From Hydrogenimonas thermophila (GTDB lineage: Bacteria > Campylobacterota > Campylobacteria > Campylobacterales > Hydrogenimonadaceae), in assembly GCF_900115615.1 (NCBI RefSeq), contig NZ_FOXB01000015.1:1-44954 (forward strand): a DNA stretch of 44,954 bases, written 5' to 3'. How positions within the stretch are numbered: position 1 is the stretch's first letter; each line of letters begins with the position of its first letter. The notes beneath the pieces were generated by a model. The model searched no databases. It was not told where the DNA came from and saw only the letters and a list, made by a program, of their open reading frames with translations. The position numbers and the translations under genes are program-made. Positions 20,692-42,391 of the stretch are shown piece after piece.

Positions 20692-21042
20692 CTAAAGTAA
20701 ATTTCTAACTTCATCTTCAAACTTGTGAAGCTCTTCTATGTTTAGCCCTGCTACGTGTCCAACCGGAACAGTAAATGCCAAAGAGCTGTTTTTATCGCTT
20801 TGCATATCCATTCCATCTACCAAAGCTTTAAGTACACGCATTGAAATTCTTCTTGGCAATACAAAAAGAAGTAAAGATACATTCTCTTCAAGTGTAAGAC
20901 CAAAAAATATTTTCTTCTCTTTCAATCCAAGATTACGCCCTCTGGTAATTGTAACTGCCCCTGCTCCTGCTTTTTTTGCCAACTCAATTGCTTCCTCTTC
21001 TCTCTCTTCTGGCACAATAGCCACCAATGCAACAAATTTCAT
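20692..21042 (-). CDS. PII-like (GlnB-fold) signalling protein
   Basis: 116 residues. The short alpha/beta protein has the PII-like pattern: KFVALVAIVPEEREEEAIELAKKAGAGAVTITRGR, then a T-loop-sized region, then LLLFVLPRRISMRVLKALVDG. It is diverged from GlnB and lacks the usual Tyr uridylylation site. PII-like proteins sense small nucleotides or ions and often sit beside the transporter they control. Here it is 4 bp after a DUF1538 transporter gene and has a strong AAGGAGG ribosome site. Confidence 0.82.
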   Translation of the reverse strand: MKFVALVAIVPEEREEEAIELAKKAGAGAVTITRGRNLGLKEKKIFFGLTLEENVSLLLFVLPRRISMRVLKALVDGMDMQSDKNSSLAFTVPVGHVAGLNIEELHKFEDEVRNLL

Positions 21043-21046
21043 ACTC

Positions 21047-22552
21047 TTATGCCTCCTTTTTGGCTAAATATTGAGCGTAAATTCCGTATCCCATTACAGT
21101 AATCATAGGAAACAAAGATGCAAATGCAATTAGACCAAACCCATCTATAAGAGGATTTCTCCCCTCAATATTTTCTGCTAATCCCAATCCCAATGCTGCA
21201 ACAAGTGGAACTGTTACGGTTGAAGTAGTTACTCCACCGCTATCATAAGCAATAGGAATAATATACCTTGGTGCAAAATATGTCATAGCAATAACTACAA
21301 TATAACCTACAATTATATAGTAATGAATAGGATCTCCAACAACTATGCGAAAAGCACCCAAAGCAATTCCAATGGCTACACCAACTGCTACAGCTACTCT
21401 AAGAAATGTCTGGTTAATCCTTCCTTCACTAACCTCCTCAGCTTTTATGGCAATAGCCAACAATGCAGGTTCAGCCATTGTTGTTGAAAATCCAATAAGA
21501 AAACCAAAAAGATAGATTAGTAAATCATTCTTCATAGAAGTCAATTGAAATGCAATTGTCTCACCAATAGGGAAAAGCCCCATTTCTAACCCAAGAATAA
21601 ATGCATAAAGACCTAAAATGACTAAAACTATACCTACAATAATTTTATGTAGATGAGCAACAGCTTTTTTAATAACAGCATACTGAAAGAAGAAAATAAC
21701 AGCTAAAATTGGTAAAACATCTTTGATAACTGCTAAAAGATCCCAAAAAATATTTGATAGATTAAAACTGCTCTCCTCTTTTATAGCTTTAGATACAGCA
21801 TCTTCAACAACAGCAATTGCAGCTTCAGCACTCTCTGGTACCAATGCATAGACAATAATTCCGTAAAGCTGCACAAAAATCATTGGAGTTAAAGAAGCAA
21901 AAGCTATAAGACCAAACCCATCTATTGCAGGATTTCGTCCTTTAATAGAGGTGGCCAAACCAATTCCCAATGCTGCTACAAGAGGTACTGTTACAGTTGA
22001 AGTTGTTACCCCACCACTATCATAAGCTAAACCAATGATCTCTTTTGGTGCAAAGAATGTAATACCAACTACAAGAATATAACCTGCTATAATATAATAA
22101 TGAATAGGATGACCAGTTAGAATACGAAATACTCCAAGAGCAATTGCAAACCCAACTGAAAATGCAACAGTCATACGTAGAAAAAATGCATCAATCTTTC
22201 CTGCACTTATGGCAGCAGCTTTATCTGCTATGGCAATTAAAGCAGGTTCTGCTACAGTTGTGGAAAAGCCTATAGTAAATGCAAAAAGTAAAAGCCAAAA
22301 AACTGATCCCTTTTTTGCAAAATCGATAGCTAAATTTTCACCAATAGGAAATATTCCTAGTTCAAGTCCACGAATAAAAAGAGCAAGACCAACAGCTACA
22401 ATAATAAGACCAATAATAATAGAAGATAAGTTTTCAGGCATTGTCTGTACAATTGCTGCCTGAAAAAAAGTAACAACAATTATGATGGGAACTAAATCTT
22501 TAAATGAATTTTTTAAATCAGTTAAAAATATTTTAGCCGATTCCATAAACAT
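21047..22552 (-). CDS. DUF1538 membrane protein, internally duplicated
   Basis: 501 residues, about 12-14 membrane segments in two homologous halves (about 1-245 and 260-501). Each half has a [11 protein letters not shown]-type motif, [32 protein letters not shown] and [20 protein letters not shown]1538 proteins have been reported to act as two-component Na+(Li+,K+)/H+ antiporters (UmpA/UmpB type). Here both units are joined in one chain, so an antiporter role is a fair inference. The ATG follows GGGGGAT. It leads an operon with PII-like, CBS and asparaginase-domain genes. The 138-bp gap upstream shows no clear terminator. Confidence 0.87.
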
Positions 22553-22690: not shown

Positions 22691-24340
22691 TTATACTTCA
22701 ATACCAATCTTATTTTTATGTTTAAATCCACTTAAGAGTTTTTCATAGAGAATTGTTTTTGTATCTCCTATACTATATTGAGCTATAGAAATTCTATTCT
22801 TTCCAATTATCTTTTGTACTCTTTTTGTATATTGCATAATATCATCTAAAGATGTATTTGGAAGTAAAACTGCATAATATTTAAAATCTATTTTTCCAAA
22901 ATAATCGCTTTTTCTAATCATGTTATTTATATTTTTTGCACTAGACTTATCTGCCTGAAATCCAACCAATAAAAATTGCTGATTATATCGTTGAGCTCTA
23001 CTTATCTCTTTTTCAACTAACTCTTCAAATATAATTTCATTATAAGCACCTGTATATGGCTCTTTTTTTAATAAATCTTTTATATCTTTTACAATTATGT
23101 TATATTCAGTTGCTTTATCTAATTTTAAATCATCTTTTTCAAAAAACAAATAGATTATCAATAAGATCGTATATATAAAAATAGATAATATTACAACACC
23201 AAGCACTATTGTTACTAACATTTCTTTATAAACAAACTTGTCATTTAAAGAGACAATCATAATAAGTGCCAAACCACCTTTCATGCCTCCTAATGTTAAA
23301 ATATTTAACCATCTTAACGGATATTTTTTATAAATTATAAATAAAGACAAAACCAAATATCTTATTACTGTAGTTAAAATAAACACATATAAAATTTCGG
23401 CTTTGTACCGCCACAATGATTCAAGTTCAATTACAGTAGCAATTGATATAAAAATAACAGCATTTGCAAAAAATCCAATATACTGTGACTCTTTTATATA
23501 TGCTCTAAAATTTAAATTTCCCTCTTGTGTAGTTAGGCTAAGTAGTAGTGCAACTGCATTTTTATTTTTATAATGCCCACCTTTGTTAAAAAGATATTTA
23601 AAAAATATAACTGCAATAACAACAGATAGAATACCAGATAATCTTAATTCATCTGATATTAAAAAACATACACTTGCCATTAAATATACAACGATAAATT
23701 TACAAAAATACTCTTGAGAAATATTAAATAGATAATATCCAATCAAACCTGCTGTTACTCCTATTGCAATAGAAAATACAATTATTTTTAAAGTCAAAGT
23801 AGCTAAAAAAGCAGCTGTTAGGTCATCACCTTGCGACAATGGAATAGCTATAAAAAAAAATATTACCATTGCCGTAATGTCATTAAATAAAGACTCTCCT
23901 TCTGCATATAACTTTAACTTATGCGGTATTTTAAATTTTGAAAAAATAGCACTTACAGAAACAACATCCGTAGCCATAAGGGGTGTAAAAAGTAAAAGAA
24001 GATGAAAAAATTCAAGATTTTTAAAAAAATTGATCTTATATGTAAAAACTACAGCTATAGCAATTGAAACTATTACCGCTACAACAGCAAGATAAAATAT
24101 TCCAGATGTATTCTCTTTTAACTCATCAGTAGAAAGACCAAGTACATCAGGAATTAAAATTATTGGTAACATTAAGTACATTATTTCATAAAAACTATCT
24201 TTTAAAAAAGATAAGTCTAAAAAATAATTTGCCATAAAAGCAAAAATTATAATTACTAAAATAAAAGGTATATTAATTTTAGATTCAACCAACTTTGATA
24301 ATAAAATTAAAAATAGTAAAATAGTAAAAATTTCTAACAA
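22691..24340 (-). CDS. CPA1-type cation/proton antiporter with degenerate GGDEF tail
   Basis: About 549 residues. The first about 415 residues form 12 or so membrane segments in a Na+(K+)/H+ antiporter pattern (LFTPLMATDVVSVSAIF and LYAEGESLFNDITAMVIFF, the latter with the ND ion site). The soluble tail of about 125 residues aligns with a GGDEF domain (EPYTGAYNEIIFEELVEKEI at its start, YYAVLLPNTSLDDI near the usual motif). It lacks the GGDEF motif and the metal-binding DxxxFK stretch, so it cannot be an active cyclase and may be a ligand sensor. No ATG is available. TTG 24340 follows TAAGG at good spacing; TTG 24385 lies within a hairpin. The gene follows the ODP-GGDEF gene. Confidence 0.8.
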   Translation of the reverse strand: MLEIFTILLFLILLSKLVESKINIPFILVIIIFAFMANYFLDLSFLKDSFYEIMYLMLPIILIPDVLGLSTDELKENTSGIFYLAVVAVIVSIAIAVVFTYKINFFKNLEFFHLLLLFTPLMATDVVSVSAIFSKFKIPHKLKLYAEGESLFNDITAMVIFFFIAIPLSQGDDLTAAFLATLTLKIIVFSIAIGVTAGLIGYYLFNISQEYFCKFIVVYLMASVCFLISDELRLSGILSVVIAVIFFKYLFNKGGHYKNKNAVALLLSLTTQEGNLNFRAYIKESQYIGFFANAVIFISIATVIELESLWRYKAEILYVFILTTVIRYLVLSLFIIYKKYPLRWLNILTLGGMKGGLALIMIVSLNDKFVYKEMLVTIVLGVVILSIFIYTILLIIYLFFEKDDLKLDKATEYNIIVKDIKDLLKKEPYTGAYNEIIFEELVEKEISRAQRYNQQFLLVGFQADKSSAKNINNMIRKSDYFGKIDFKYYAVLLPNTSLDDIMQYTKRVQKIIGKNRISIAQYSIGDTKTILYEKLLSGFKHKNKIGIEV

Positions 24341-24383
24341 CCTATAAACCTTACTTATTTCTACTTGAACTTTTTTAGATGCC

Positions 24384-24414
24384 AAACAAGGCTAAAATTC
24401 CAATCCCCTTGTTT
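24384..24414 (-). terminator. 8-bp inverted repeat between ODP-GGDEF and antiporter genes
   Basis: AAACAAGG (24384-24391) and CCTTGTTT (24407-24414) can form an 8-bp stem in the short intergenic gap. There is no T-run, so it may be an mRNA-processing or attenuation element rather than a terminator. Confidence 0.3.
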
Positions 24415-24429
24415 AGAGAAATTAATTAA

Positions 24430-26064
24430 TTAATTAACTACAACTCTATTTCTTCCAGAATTTTTAGCCTCATATAGCCTTTTATCTACACAATCAATAA
24501 GCCTCTCTATATCTTCATCTTTATACTGATAAACACCTATACTAACTGTTATTTTAATATTATGCTCATCACAAAAAGAGTGTTTTTCTATAATTTCTCT
24601 TATTTTTTCCATCTTTAAATATATGCCTTGAATATTGGTAAAAGGCATTATTATAAGTATCTCTTCTCCTCCATACCTAATTGCTATATCAGTTTCTCTT
24701 ATATTATTTTGAATTAGCATAGAAACTTCTTTTAAAACACAATCTCCATAAACATGTCCATAAGTATCATTTATTTTTTTAAAAAAATCTATATCTATCA
24801 TAGCAATGGAAAGTGGAAAGTCATTTTGAATTGATTCTTGAATTTTATTGCTCAATATATCATTCATATAATTTCTATTATAAAGATTTGTTAAAGGATC
24901 TTTTATGCTTTTATCTTTTAATTTTTTCAAATTAATATCTTTTTCAAAACTTAATGAAAAAGGAACTATTATTTTGTTTAAAAATATATTTAATAATTTT
25001 AACTCTTTTTCTCCTATTTCATCAAAATAAAAATTTAATTTCCCTATTGAGCAACCATCTTTTTCCAAAACTTTAATCAATAATGGTTCTTTTTTGCAAT
25101 TAGTTTGCTTTTCAGGTCTATATAAAACTTGGTTACTATCTACAACATAGTATTCATACTCTTGAATATCATCAACTTTATAAACAGAAATTTTATTTAA
25201 AGATTTAATATCATTTTTAATATAGTCAAATAAATTTCTTAAAATCATGTCAAAAGAAGATAAAGAGATAAGATCTTCAAAAAATTTCTTTAACAGTTCA
25301 TCTGTTTTATTTAGTAGATATATATCGCTCTCATGTTCATCTAACATATATAAACCACAATTTAATTTTCTCATTTTATCAACAATAGGTTTTATTAACT
25401 CTTTTTTTATAATCGAGCCATGTTGTGGTGCAATCATTTCAGGATTTTTATTTTCAATTTGCAATAGAGCATGATTTAAAATTGCTTTTGAAGGCATATA
25501 GTGTATATGAAAAAGTTTCAAACTTTCAAAATATCCTATATCTTTTGCATACAAAGCAAATTCGTCTGTTAATCCGCCAAAGATATCACTAGAAAACATT
25601 GTCTTTGTCTCTTTGTCAAAAGTACAAAAAGCTCCTGCAAAATGTGCATAAGGAGTAAATACAAACTCTAACTCTCTACCTCCATCCAAAGTCAATTTCC
25701 AGTCATTTTCATCAACTAGCCAAAACGGAGTTTTCCATTGATAGTGTTTTAAAAGTGTTTGTGTTCTCCAATGAGTTACAAAAACTTTATCATTTCTAGA
25801 CATTATAGTCTCCAATGTCGAAACACACCCTACAATATCTGGGTCTTGATGATGCAAAATAATATATTTAATATCATCTAGTTGCATTATAGAAGTTATT
25901 TTTTGCATTGTTACTGGAAATGTAATCATACTGCCTGGGTCTATAAGAACTGATTCTTTACCATTCTTTATAAGATAAACATGGCACTGAAAAGGGTCAT
26001 TGGGTATAACATAACCTACCCAAAATATATCTTTTGCAATCTCAATAGGTTGTGAAAAATCCAT
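24430..26064 (-). CDS. Diiron ODP-type oxygen sensor fused to active GGDEF
   Basis: 544 residues. The N-terminal about 240 residues are a metallo-beta-lactamase-fold domain with flavodiiron-type metal ligands: HHQDPD at 71-76, H141, D160 in SSDIFGG and H215 in PQHG. There is no flavodoxin part, as in oxygen-binding diiron (ODP) sensors. A GAF-like middle region (about 250-375) is followed by a GGDEF domain with an intact GGEEI (465-469) and an RETD inhibitory site (456-459). It should make c-di-GMP under control of oxygen or redox state; the sensing part is inferred from family. It is soluble, with ATG after AAGGAGT. It lies 24 bp after the REC-GGDEF-EAL gene. Confidence 0.87.
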   Translation of the reverse strand: MDFSQPIEIAKDIFWVGYVIPNDPFQCHVYLIKNGKESVLIDPGSMITFPVTMQKITSIMQLDDIKYIILHHQDPDIVGCVSTLETIMSRNDKVFVTHWRTQTLLKHYQWKTPFWLVDENDWKLTLDGGRELEFVFTPYAHFAGAFCTFDKETKTMFSSDIFGGLTDEFALYAKDIGYFESLKLFHIHYMPSKAILNHALLQIENKNPEMIAPQHGSIIKKELIKPIVDKMRKLNCGLYMLDEHESDIYLLNKTDELLKKFFEDLISLSSFDMILRNLFDYIKNDIKSLNKISVYKVDDIQEYEYYVVDSNQVLYRPEKQTNCKKEPLLIKVLEKDGCSIGKLNFYFDEIGEKELKLLNIFLNKIIVPFSLSFEKDINLKKLKDKSIKDPLTNLYNRNYMNDILSNKIQESIQNDFPLSIAMIDIDFFKKINDTYGHVYGDCVLKEVSMLIQNNIRETDIAIRYGGEEILIIMPFTNIQGIYLKMEKIREIIEKHSFCDEHNIKITVSIGVYQYKDEDIERLIDCVDKRLYEAKNSGRNRVVVN

Positions 26065-26088: not shown

Positions 26089-27825
26089 CTATATAATAAA
26101 ATCATGAAAGTCTAATATTTCAGGTTCAGGCTTACCAAAGTAATAGCCCTGAGCATAATCTACACCTAATAACAATATAGTATCTAAAACTTCTTTACTA
26201 TGTACATATTCTGCTATAGTTTTAATTCCACTTAAATTTGCATAATAAACAATTGTTTTGACAATATTTTGAGATTCAATATTTACATCAATGTCTTTAA
26301 TAAAACTACCATCTATTTTTACAAAATCAACATCTAATTTTAAAAGACTTGTAAAATTTGAATTTTCTGTTCCAAAATCATCAATTGCAAGTCTAAATCC
26401 TGCTTTTTTAAAATCTTTTAATTGTTGCACAATATCATAACTATAATTATTATTAATATTTTCTAAGATTTCTAAAATTACATAAGAACTTTTAACACTA
26501 TATAATTCACACATTTTATTCAAAAAATCTAATAAATACTCTTCTTTTAAATCATCTTCAGTAATATTTATAGAAAATTGTAAGTCTGTATTTGCCATAA
26601 TAGCAAAAGACTTCTCTATTATTTGCTTTGTTATTTCAGGCAAAATACCTGCCTTTTTAGCTGGTTCAATAAATAAATAAGGTGAATCTACACTCTCATT
26701 TTCAACTATACGTGCTAAACATTCATACTTTTCAATTTTATTGCTTTTAAGATTAATTATTGGTTGAAAAAAAGGTTGATATAAATTAGAATCTAATGCT
26801 ATTTTTGCCTTTTGAGTCCACTCTATAACTTTTTTACGTTTCAATTCCAAAATAAATTCAGGTTTAAATATCTCAATAGAATTTTTATGTGTCTCTCTTG
26901 CTTTTTTTATTGCCAAATGAGCATTTCCAAAAGGAGGTTTTTTCAAGGTTTTATCTATAGGAATAATTCCAATAGTAACAGTTATACAAAGGGATAAACC
27001 ATTAACAAGAAAATAGTTATTGTAAATTGAGTTATGAATATTTTCCGCAATACTTTTAGCTTCACTTAGTGTAAACTCCTTTATTAAAATAGCAAACTCA
27101 TCACCATTAATTCTATACAATTTATTAGAATCCAATAATTTACGTAAAAAAGAGGCAAACTCAATTAATAATAAATCACCAACTTCAAATCCATAATATA
27201 AATTTATTTGGTCAAAATTATCAATATTTAAAAAAATCATTACATCTGGTGAAAACTCTTTAAAATCTATATTTAACTGCTCTTTATTAGGTAATCTGGT
27301 TAAATGATCTGTTCTTAATTGATTTATTAATGATTCAGTTTGTTGCTTTATCTGATCGACTTGTTTTGCAACTAACTCTTCCAAATTTAAACGATACTTA
27401 GTATTTTCTTTCTCCATAATTACCAATTTTGCAATTTTATATAAAGTATTAATAATCTGGTCAGATTTAATTGGTTTTAAAATATATCCATCTATTCCCA
27501 TAAATACAGTTTCTAAAATTATTTGACTATCTCCATGCGCACTTTGAGCAACTATCTTTTGTTCAGGTTTAATCTTTCTAATCTCTTCTATCATTTTAAG
27601 CCCATCCATAATAGGCATTCTTAAATCAGTTAGAACTATATCAGGGTACTCTTTTTCAAAGATGTTTAGTCCTTCTTGTCCATTTTCAGCAATATAAACA
27701 TTTTTAAATAATGTTTTTAATAACCCATAAATACTTTCTCTTGCAGCTTCCTCATCATCAACAAATAAGATTGATAAATTTTCAGTATAACTTTTCAATT
27801 TCTTTGTTATATTTTTATCTAGCAT
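26089..27825 (-). CDS. Response regulator REC-GGDEF-EAL
   Basis: 578 residues. The receiver domain has phospho-acceptor D67 (VLTDLRMP) and switch Lys in LKPI. After a coiled linker comes a GGDEF domain with a changed signature NGDEF (240-244), then EAL with ECL (368-370). Other EAL residues are present (ILEILE, AIDDFGTENS, KIDGSF, AEYVH, QGYYFGKP). It likely hydrolyses c-di-GMP, with GGDEF inactive or GTP-sensing. The start overlaps the cheB stop by 11 bp, so it is a likely output of the same chemosensory operon. It is closely related in layout to the product of 40727-42391. Confidence 0.88.
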   Translation of the reverse strand: MLDKNITKKLKSYTENLSILFVDDEEAARESIYGLLKTLFKNVYIAENGQEGLNIFEKEYPDIVLTDLRMPIMDGLKMIEEIRKIKPEQKIVAQSAHGDSQIILETVFMGIDGYILKPIKSDQIINTLYKIAKLVIMEKENTKYRLNLEELVAKQVDQIKQQTESLINQLRTDHLTRLPNKEQLNIDFKEFSPDVMIFLNIDNFDQINLYYGFEVGDLLLIEFASFLRKLLDSNKLYRINGDEFAILIKEFTLSEAKSIAENIHNSIYNNYFLVNGLSLCITVTIGIIPIDKTLKKPPFGNAHLAIKKARETHKNSIEIFKPEFILELKRKKVIEWTQKAKIALDSNLYQPFFQPIINLKSNKIEKYECLARIVENESVDSPYLFIEPAKKAGILPEITKQIIEKSFAIMANTDLQFSINITEDDLKEEYLLDFLNKMCELYSVKSSYVILEILENINNNYSYDIVQQLKDFKKAGFRLAIDDFGTENSNFTSLLKLDVDFVKIDGSFIKDIDVNIESQNIVKTIVYYANLSGIKTIAEYVHSKEVLDTILLLGVDYAQGYYFGKPEPEILDFHDFII

Positions 27826-40726: not shown

Positions 40727-42391
40727 ATGAATATGCAGGAACTTAAAAAAGAACTTAAAGATTTAACACTTCTATATGTAGAAGATGATGCAAATACAAG
40801 AATAAGAATTGAAAAACTTTTTAGTCATATTTTTAAAAGTGTAACAACAGCAGAAAATGGAGTAGATGCACTTAAACTTTATGAAGAAAAAGAGTATGAC
40901 TTAGTTATTACAGATATTACAATGCCAAAAATGAATGGCATAGAATTGATAGAAAATATAAGAAACACTAATAAAAATCAAACAATTATAATTTTAACTG
41001 CACATAACACAAATGAAAATTTATTAGATGCAATAGACTTACAAGTTGATGGTTTCTTATTAAAACCACTTGATAAAGATAAAATGTCTGAATTACTATA
41101 CAAAATAGGTAAACATATTAAAAATGAAAAAGAAAATATAAGCTATAAGAAAAATTTAGAGTCATTAGTACAAGAACAACAAAACAAGATTTGTGAATTG
41201 ATAGCTAAAGACCATCTTACCGGTGAATATAATTATTCAAAGCTCAAATCATTAATAATACATAATAAAAGTTCTACTGTTTGTCTTTTAGTAATAAATC
41301 ATCTTTCTGAACTTCTTGATTTTTTTGGAACAGAAATATATGAACCTATTATAAAAAAATGTTCTGACTATCTTAAATCAATAATTATTGAAAAAATGAA
41401 ATATTTTCATTTACGAAGTAATGAATTTGCAATTTTTATTGATAATACGAATAATTCAGAAGATTTAATGAAAAAGTTTTGTAAAAAAATAGAAGATTTT
41501 TATATTAACATTAATGGTGCTAAAATAAAAATAGTCTTTTCTACTGCTGTATTAAAAGGAGACAGCACTACTCTTTTAAAATCAATAGATGATACTCTTT
41601 TAAAAATATCACAATCTGGTAATATTCACAATATTACTAATCTAAACAATGACATAATAAAACAAAGATGGGAATCATTATGCATTGCAACAAATGTTGC
41701 GGATAAGTCATTGTCAATACCATATTATCAGCCTATTTTTTCACAAAATGAAGAACACTTAATGTTTGAAGTATTATGTAGAATAAATAATAATTTTTTT
41801 AAAAATGAAAACAAAAGAAAATGTTTCTTTGAATCCTGTAAAAAAGCTCAAATTTTTAGCAAAATTACCTTAAATGTTTTAAAAAGTTCAATAAAACAGA
41901 TTGAAAAAGTAAATGCTCTATTTTTTATAAATTTGTGTAAAAATGAAATATTAGATAGTGAGTTCATAAATACAATAATTAATTCACCTATAAAAGTAAA
42001 AAACAATATTGTTATAGAAGTAAATCCATCATTATTAAATGAAAACAAAATAATTAATATAATATTAAAACTTAAAGATATTGGCATTAGGATATGTTTT
42101 GATAATGTAGGCTTAGAATCATTTCAAATTAAAAGAATATTGGATATCAATCTCATTCCTAGCTTTTTAAAACTCGATAAAAGTATTATTTCTTCTATTC
42201 CATTTAATGAAAGATATTTAAATACAGTTCAAGCATATACTATCTTTGCAAAAAATATGAATATAAAAACTATTGCAGTAGGTATTGAAAATCAAAAGTG
42301 CTATGAAGTAGCTAAAAAAATAGGCTTCGATTACTATCAAGGTTATTACCTTGCTGAACCTCAAGAGACAATTAAAATAGGAGAAATATAA
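40727..42391 (+). CDS. Response regulator REC with degenerate GGDEF and EAL
   Basis: 554 residues. The receiver looks working (D63 in VITDITMP, LKPL). The GGDEF position reads RSNEF (230-234), so cyclase activity is lost. The EAL domain keeps EVL (348-350), QGYYLAEP and KLDKS, but the metal-binding DDFG is DNVG (459-462) and other positions have drifted (INLCKNEI). Phosphodiesterase activity is doubtful; c-di-GMP binding or a purely protein-binding role is possible. It sits directly after cheA (AAGGAG ribosome site) and one base step before the FIST kinase. Confidence 0.87.
   Translation: MNMQELKKELKDLTLLYVEDDANTRIRIEKLFSHIFKSVTTAENGVDALKLYEEKEYDLVITDITMPKMNGIELIENIRNTNKNQTIIILTAHNTNENLLDAIDLQVDGFLLKPLDKDKMSELLYKIGKHIKNEKENISYKKNLESLVQEQQNKICELIAKDHLTGEYNYSKLKSLIIHNKSSTVCLLVINHLSELLDFFGTEIYEPIIKKCSDYLKSIIIEKMKYFHLRSNEFAIFIDNTNNSEDLMKKFCKKIEDFYININGAKIKIVFSTAVLKGDSTTLLKSIDDTLLKISQSGNIHNITNLNNDIIKQRWESLCIATNVADKSLSIPYYQPIFSQNEEHLMFEVLCRINNNFFKNENKRKCFFESCKKAQIFSKITLNVLKSSIKQIEKVNALFFINLCKNEILDSEFINTIINSPIKVKNNIVIEVNPSLLNENKIINIILKLKDIGIRICFDNVGLESFQIKRILDINLIPSFLKLDKSIISSIPFNERYLNTVQAYTIFAKNMNIKTIAVGIENQKCYEVAKKIGFDYYQGYYLAEPQETIKIGEI

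Follow-up and report, generated by a model that had tools for sequence, protein, structure and literature searches.

Control by c-di-GMP extends to motility, polysaccharides, transcription and development, and degenerate GGDEF domains are among its receptors, BcsE and SgmT being two such cases besides the one taken up below. On the transport side, CPA1 antiporters form dimers whose C-termini face the cytosol, and the Na+/H+ exchanger of sea urchin sperm, SLC9C1, uses a voltage-sensor domain together with a cyclic-nucleotide-binding domain. The locus described here, which lies in a window of 44,954 nucleotides from Hydrogenimonas thermophila (contig NZ_FOXB01000015.1), combines an antiporter with a GGDEF-type domain. 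To our knowledge no ion antiporter is under direct control by c-di-GMP, and a search of the open-access literature brought up neither a recognisable case of this nor an antiporter with a GGDEF tail.

The receptor that comes closest in its logic is PelD, which, according to an excerpt of PMC2170427, has a GGDEF-like domain without a GGDEF-type motif but with a conserved RxxD motif, and uses the latter for c-di-GMP binding in the control of a separate component. PelD-type receptors govern polysaccharide machines or a kinase, whereas the domain in the window is fused to an ion/proton antiporter; the likeness is moreover to PelD as described, the tail sequence itself being akin to ordinary diguanylate cyclases. 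In such cyclases the RxxD motif and its partner residues form an allosteric c-di-GMP site (I-site), to which a partner domain contributes R313 (PleD) or R198 (WspR), and binding at this site normally crosslinks two GGDEF domains (excerpts of PMC2270323, PMC12943098 and PMC7288161). Among exchangers, SLC9C1 has been solved with cAMP or cGMP (PDB entry titles) and offers a cAMP-responsive precedent whose CPA1-fold core is matched by the full-length model of the window protein, although it is eukaryotic whereas the window protein is bacterial and carries a GGDEF-fold tail. CpaA of S. aureus is a bacterial cation/proton antiporter tied to c-di-AMP by its C-terminal domain (so far as the excerpt of PMC7288161 goes), but that domain has the RCK_C/TrkA_C fold, as against a GGDEF fold and predicted c-di-GMP here; Pfam finds no RCK or TrkA domain in the window antiporter. 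For Halomonas, the excerpt of PMC12421958 links salt tolerance to a membrane diguanylate cyclase, in which an active GGDEF domain sits on a six-helix membrane domain rather than a dead one on an antiporter. Structurally, the closest precedent for a fusion of this sort is provided by PDB entries 8qj3, 8qj4 and 8qpf (“Ammonium transporter”), where, as in the window protein, a transporter is followed by a GGDEF domain (residues about 450-630) within a single chain. There, however, the transporter is for ammonium, while the antiporter of the window carries a dead GGDEF domain, so that information would run from c-di-GMP to the transporter and not the reverse. Finally, the tailless NhaP-type CPA1 antiporters share their membrane domain family with the window protein, PaNhaP being a top structural match, but differ from it in lying outside the tailed clade of the tree described below, save for one secondary loss.

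The gene for the antiporter with its degenerate GGDEF domain occupies 22691-24340 on the minus strand and specifies 549 residues from a TTG at 24340, from which residue numbers are counted throughout. The longest version of the open reading frame runs over 22691-24385 (minus strand; 564 residues), counted from the furthest TTG at 24385, but the TTG at 24340 appears the better start because homologue starts and upstream sequence agree: it is exactly the first residue for nine of 13 aligned homologues (the remaining four have extra N-terminal residues), and TAAGG lies directly 5′ of it. The start adopted in the earlier note is thereby upheld. Between 22500 and 24600 no terminator-like site was found, and promoter-like sites were not above those in shuffled sequence. 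An inverted repeat, AAACAAGG...CCTTGTTT, lies at 24384-24414 of the window, between this gene and its upstream neighbour; it was not scored as a terminator, and it overlaps the alternative TTG at 24385.

The membrane domain (residues 10-398; 23147-24313, minus strand) matches Pfam PF00999, Na_H_Exchanger, at 1.9e-24, scoring 86.7 bits against a curated cut-off of 26.2, and the same match is made by 14/14 aligned members of the family. Invariant in all 14 are T124-D125, E149-S150-L151, N153-D154 and R327, and the TD and ND motifs line up with those of SOS1; we take D125 (the TM5 aspartate), N153-D154 (the ND motif) and the conserved R327 to be ion-site residues. The whole protein matches SOS1-type exchangers in the PDB at 2.3e-7, and a full-length AlphaFold2 model, made from the 14-member family alignment (mean pLDDT 81), has SOS1, PaNhaP and SLC9C1 as its best PDB matches. 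An NhaP/NHE fold is assigned because the model matches PaNhaP and the motif residues are conserved. To judge from its sequence, the core of a CPA1 cation/proton antiporter is intact, with transport as its putative function. The protein is a CPA1 relative outside the equivalogs TIGR00831 and TIGR00840, scoring 67 and 40 bits where the curated cut-offs are 279.6 and 251.25.

For the soluble tail (residues about 420-549; 22694-23083, minus strand) a degenerate GGDEF fold is predicted at high confidence. In the full protein the Pfam GGDEF match has an E-value of 2e-5 and covers residues 467-525, while for the tail searched alone it reaches 4.4e-7, in two separate stretches; in the PDB, diguanylate cyclases are hit at 4.7e-7 when phmmer is run with the tail, and at 8.1e-23 with a profile built on 38 tails. 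A tail-only model (148 residues, built from those 38 tails) has a mean pLDDT of 87, the means of single blocks lying at 83-97 beyond residue 20, and all 50 of its listed Foldseek matches are GGDEF-domain proteins, as are all 50 entries listed by VIA-align (Z 17.6 to 14.2). Several of the GGDEF structures matched in this way were solved with c-di-GMP. Since the Pfam, phmmer, profile and model matches agree, the likeness is far beyond chance.

The catalytic residues, in contrast, have been lost. Residues K483-Y489 (KIDFKYY; 22874-22894, minus strand) replace RYGGDEF, with D-F-K-Y-Y at the position of the GGDEF motif itself, taking away the catalytic loop, and the stretch DxD...KxxND..GH..GD is deleted. 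The earlier note had spoken of an antiporter fused to a catalytically dead GGDEF domain that lacks both the motif and the central metal-binding stretch, and all of this is borne out: the Na_H_Exchanger match, the alignment of the tail and its predicted fold, which is GGDEF and no other, point the same way. To extend this to the family, 47 tails (that of the window, 13 from a survey of the order and genus and 33 from a scan of GTDB species genomes, some genes being met twice) were reduced at 90% identity to 41 distinct tails, and nine catalytic or GTP columns were scored in them (PleD D327, K332, N335, D336, H340, D344, G368, G369 and E371). None of the nine is kept in 27 tails, one in nine and two, the maximum, in five, and a GGDEF-like motif is absent from all 41. 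With its motif and metal/GTP residues gone, the window tail can hardly be an active diguanylate cyclase. The intact GGDEF domains used for comparison came from the fetched loci (n=44 for counting RxxD and n=42 for scoring columns, the filters having differed), and were picked by GGDEF motif and DxDxF; their 42/42 in the catalytic columns is by construction, whereas the I-site columns played no part in the choice.

It could be asked whether the tail senses some ligand other than c-di-GMP, such as GTP, ATP, (p)ppGpp, c-di-AMP or an ion, and this seems unlikely, though there is some material in its favour. According to the excerpt of PMC7288161 there are degenerate GGDEF domains capable of binding GTP or of hydrolysing ATP, PDB titles reveal structures of PleD with (p)ppGpp, and in an Aquificota-type clade of the family a different conserved motif, S-x-L-D, stands at the I-site. 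For GTP, however, the N335 and D344 columns, which bind guanine, are deleted in 14/14 short tails, that of the window included, and with its pocket gone GTP sensing by the short tails was rejected.

What the window tail does retain is a complete I-site, as seen when PleD numbering is transferred by way of the neighbouring ODP-GGDEF protein, to which PleD was aligned and which was in turn aligned to the tails. RKSD (R476-D479; 22904-22915, minus strand) forms the RxxD core (PleD R359/D362); R507 (22820-22822, minus strand) falls at the position of PleD R390, the third cis residue; and R448, together with R451 in the same first tail helix (22988-22999, minus strand), falls at that of the trans arginine, PleD R313, which by its spacing is presumably also that of WspR R198. 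All four residues are found together in 33/41 distinct tails, as compared with 29/42 intact GGDEF domains from the same loci. Taken singly, the RxxD aspartate (D479) is present in 41/41 and the arginine three residues before it in 33/41, while a basic residue, K or R, stands at the R390 position in 39/41. The clearest difference is at the R313 position (R448), which is R in 38/41 tails against 18/42 intact domains (Fisher p 1e-6, uncorrected for relatedness). It must be remembered that RxxD is near universal in the intact domains (41/44), so that its retention in the tails is in part ancestral, and that the aspartate could be kept for structural reasons.

On balance, the reading that we somewhat prefer is that the tail of the window protein is a c-di-GMP receptor, PelD-like in its logic, that gates a CPA1 antiporter; both the binding and the gating are putative. 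As to the nucleotide- or c-di-GMP-sensing gate suggested in the earlier note, the c-di-GMP alternative thus survives as the best reading, with the I-site kept in most of the family, while a GTP gate is improbable, the guanine and phosphate residues being lost or deleted. The survival of RxxD and its partner arginines, which speaks most strongly for the c-di-GMP alternative, does not figure in that note. A diguanylate cyclase domain would have been joined once to a CPA1 antiporter and would then have lost catalysis and GTP binding, with the product-binding site retained as a receptor. The window antiporter is presumed to be a dimer with cytosolic tails, and as CPA1 antiporters are dimers and the I-site crosslinks two GGDEF domains, c-di-GMP would sit between the two tails. 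It would be bound, probably as the usual intercalated dimer, by R476, D479 and R507 of one tail, the site being completed by R448 or R451 from the tail of the partner protomer, and in clamping the two tails together it would alter the rate of exchange.

If this is right, a biofilm/motility signal would directly set the balance of sodium, of potassium or of pH, and perhaps the ion gradients powering flagella or respiration as well, tying the decision between sessile and motile life to ion and pH homeostasis within one protein. It would also be an example of a feedback site that persists after the enzyme it served is gone. The protein would make a clean test object, having a single domain with four mutable residues, and nature supplies both a relative without the tail and a clade in which the arginine is replaced.

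A rather less probable explanation, though one to be taken seriously, is that the dead GGDEF domain has no nucleotide ligand at all and acts through protein-protein contacts, either dimerising or autoinhibiting the antiporter or docking a diguanylate cyclase or phosphodiesterase, with the contact controlling transport. The strictest columns of the tails, Y433, D526 and K534 (41/41 each) and E445 (40/41), include no I-site residue, and they suggest an interface between antiporter and tail or between tails; because Y433, D526 and K534 exceed the I-site in conservation, some further interface is probably also under selection. Some of the structural matches are exchangers with C-terminal regulatory domains, including an SOS1 entry whose title calls it auto-inhibited. 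In addition, the I-site arginine is missing from 8/41 tails, for which reason the c-di-GMP reading perhaps does not hold family-wide. Two of the eight (L031 and L033) are short-tail Campylobacterota close to the window protein, and the other six (L070, L074, L076, L078, L084 and L087, from Aquificota and Gammaproteobacteria) form a clade in which S replaces the RxxD arginine to give S-x-L-D. Against this explanation, contacts between proteins leave unaccounted for the retention of four I-site positions, including the equivalent of PleD R313, in the large majority of tails from which the catalytic face has gone. The S-x-L-D tails are nearer full length and may conceivably have another ligand; loss of c-di-GMP as the cause of their arginine loss was rejected, since the six genomes have 12-25 GGDEF matches.

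The distribution of the family was established in several steps of differing reach. A first scan of named genomes gave no relative. In a survey of the order (398 genomes), 63 had a CPA1 relative at E <= 1e-20, of which 14, the window's own genome included, had the tail, and a full-length match was found in 0/17 other genomes of the genus. Scanning GTDB species genomes with an alignment gave 50 loci, 33 of them (L056-L088) with a GGDEF-type tail extending 137-174 residues beyond a fixed point. Hosts in the Campylobacterota are Sulfurimonas, Arcobacteraceae and others; in the Gammaproteobacteria, partly as MAGs, Hydrogenovibrio, Thiomicrorhabdus, Thiomicrospira, Halothiobacillus and Sedimenticola; and in the Aquificota, Hydrogenothermaceae. 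Many of the host lineages oxidise sulfur or hydrogen. Outside all family counts stands L093, a CPA1 relative from Nitrospirota whose C-terminal tail, of about 221 residues, is unrelated, and L105 is without a usable frame.

When 62 membrane domains were placed in a maximum-likelihood tree (L057 and L065, with short membrane domains, being left outside it), the 39 tailed rows and one tailless protein formed a single branch with support 100/99, and the other tailless proteins, of 23 in all, lay outside it. Within the branch, support is 100/100 both for the short-tail group, to which the window protein belongs, and for the Aquificota-type group. In the one tailless member, L091, a stop codon directly follows the final membrane helix and a tail is missing from all three frames, so that it looks like a secondary loss, placed as it is inside the short-tail group; as a close relative of the window antiporter it is a natural variant without the tail. 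One fusion origin followed by wide spread is what the tree indicates, rather than a one-off product of decay. That this family, single in origin and found in Campylobacterota, Gammaproteobacteria and Aquificota, consists of cation/proton antiporters gated by c-di-GMP, in which a product-inhibition site has been turned into a switch, is a proposition for and against which the case seems about evenly balanced.

A functionless tail, the remnant of a cyclase domain in decay, would agree with the range of tail lengths, from 174 down to 137 residues, and with the existence of a lineage that has dispensed with its tail (L091). Selection argues strongly the other way: in the same five close pairs dN/dS is 0.08-0.19 for the tail and 0.03-0.09 for the membrane part (eight pairs were tried, of which five gave a tail value and another was saturated), which implies that the tail is maintained by purifying selection. 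Five columns are moreover invariant across 38 aligned tails from three phyla, and neither a single origin nor so broad a distribution is what decay would lead one to expect, making a vestigial tail very improbable. In favour of the c-di-GMP reading, GGDEF proteins are encoded in all 14 tailed genomes of the order survey and in all 15 genomes of named members that were checked. In one genus the first-look GGDEF candidates have a median of 64 in eight tailed genomes against 42.5 in 20 others (Mann-Whitney p 0.0014), a comparison given little weight as it concerns candidate counts in related species and may count the tail itself.

As for genomic context, the minus strand carries in order an RR-GGDEF-EAL gene (26089-27825), ODP-GGDEF, the antiporter, an UmpA-UmpB-like fusion, a weakly PII-like gene, a CBS gene, a short ORF and NhaA. 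ODP-GGDEF (24430-26064, minus strand; PF19583 at 4.9e-61 and GGDEF at 3.4e-42) lies upstream of the antiporter, 89 bp from its start, and is a predicted diguanylate cyclase; it has GGEEI instead of GGDEF/GGEEF but its GTP residues are intact, and it is probably active. The ORF at 21047-22552 (minus strand) has UmpA- and UmpB-like halves (NCBIfam 3.7e-158 and 1.6e-138), with 524 bits for NF041627, above the cut-off of 490, and 460 bits for NF041628, below that of 500; it would be a fused form of the two-subunit Na,Li,K/H antiporter. The 116-residue protein adjoining it (20692-21042, minus strand) has a weak PII match (E 0.023) and is a possible PII-like regulator of the transporter. Three cation/proton transporters within 6 kb suggest an ion-homeostasis cluster around the antiporter-GGDEF gene.

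The earlier note had gone on to propose that oxygen-dependent c-di-GMP from the ODP-GGDEF neighbour might control ion exchange, and here the comparison is unfavourable. Queries for ODP, PII-like, NhaA and receiver-domain proteins found none at 36 homologous loci (several of which are short contigs), and UmpAB was found at 1/36; as a conserved feature the oxygen link was rejected. A GGDEF protein is present at 12/36 loci, which in GGDEF-rich genomes is no evidence, and since the window's own genome has 42 GGDEF matches, many cyclases could supply c-di-GMP. Because the neighbourhoods of homologues share almost none of the window's gene order, oxygen control of the antiporter stays a local possibility, confined to this locus. 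Gene order around the fusion is conserved only in one Arcobacteraceae group, where it stands beside amidophosphoribosyltransferase-like and cytochrome bc-like genes (named by eye). Elsewhere in the window, a 554-residue ORF contains a weak partial GGDEF match (2.7e-6; 41261-41620, plus strand), which is perhaps another degenerate GGDEF domain.
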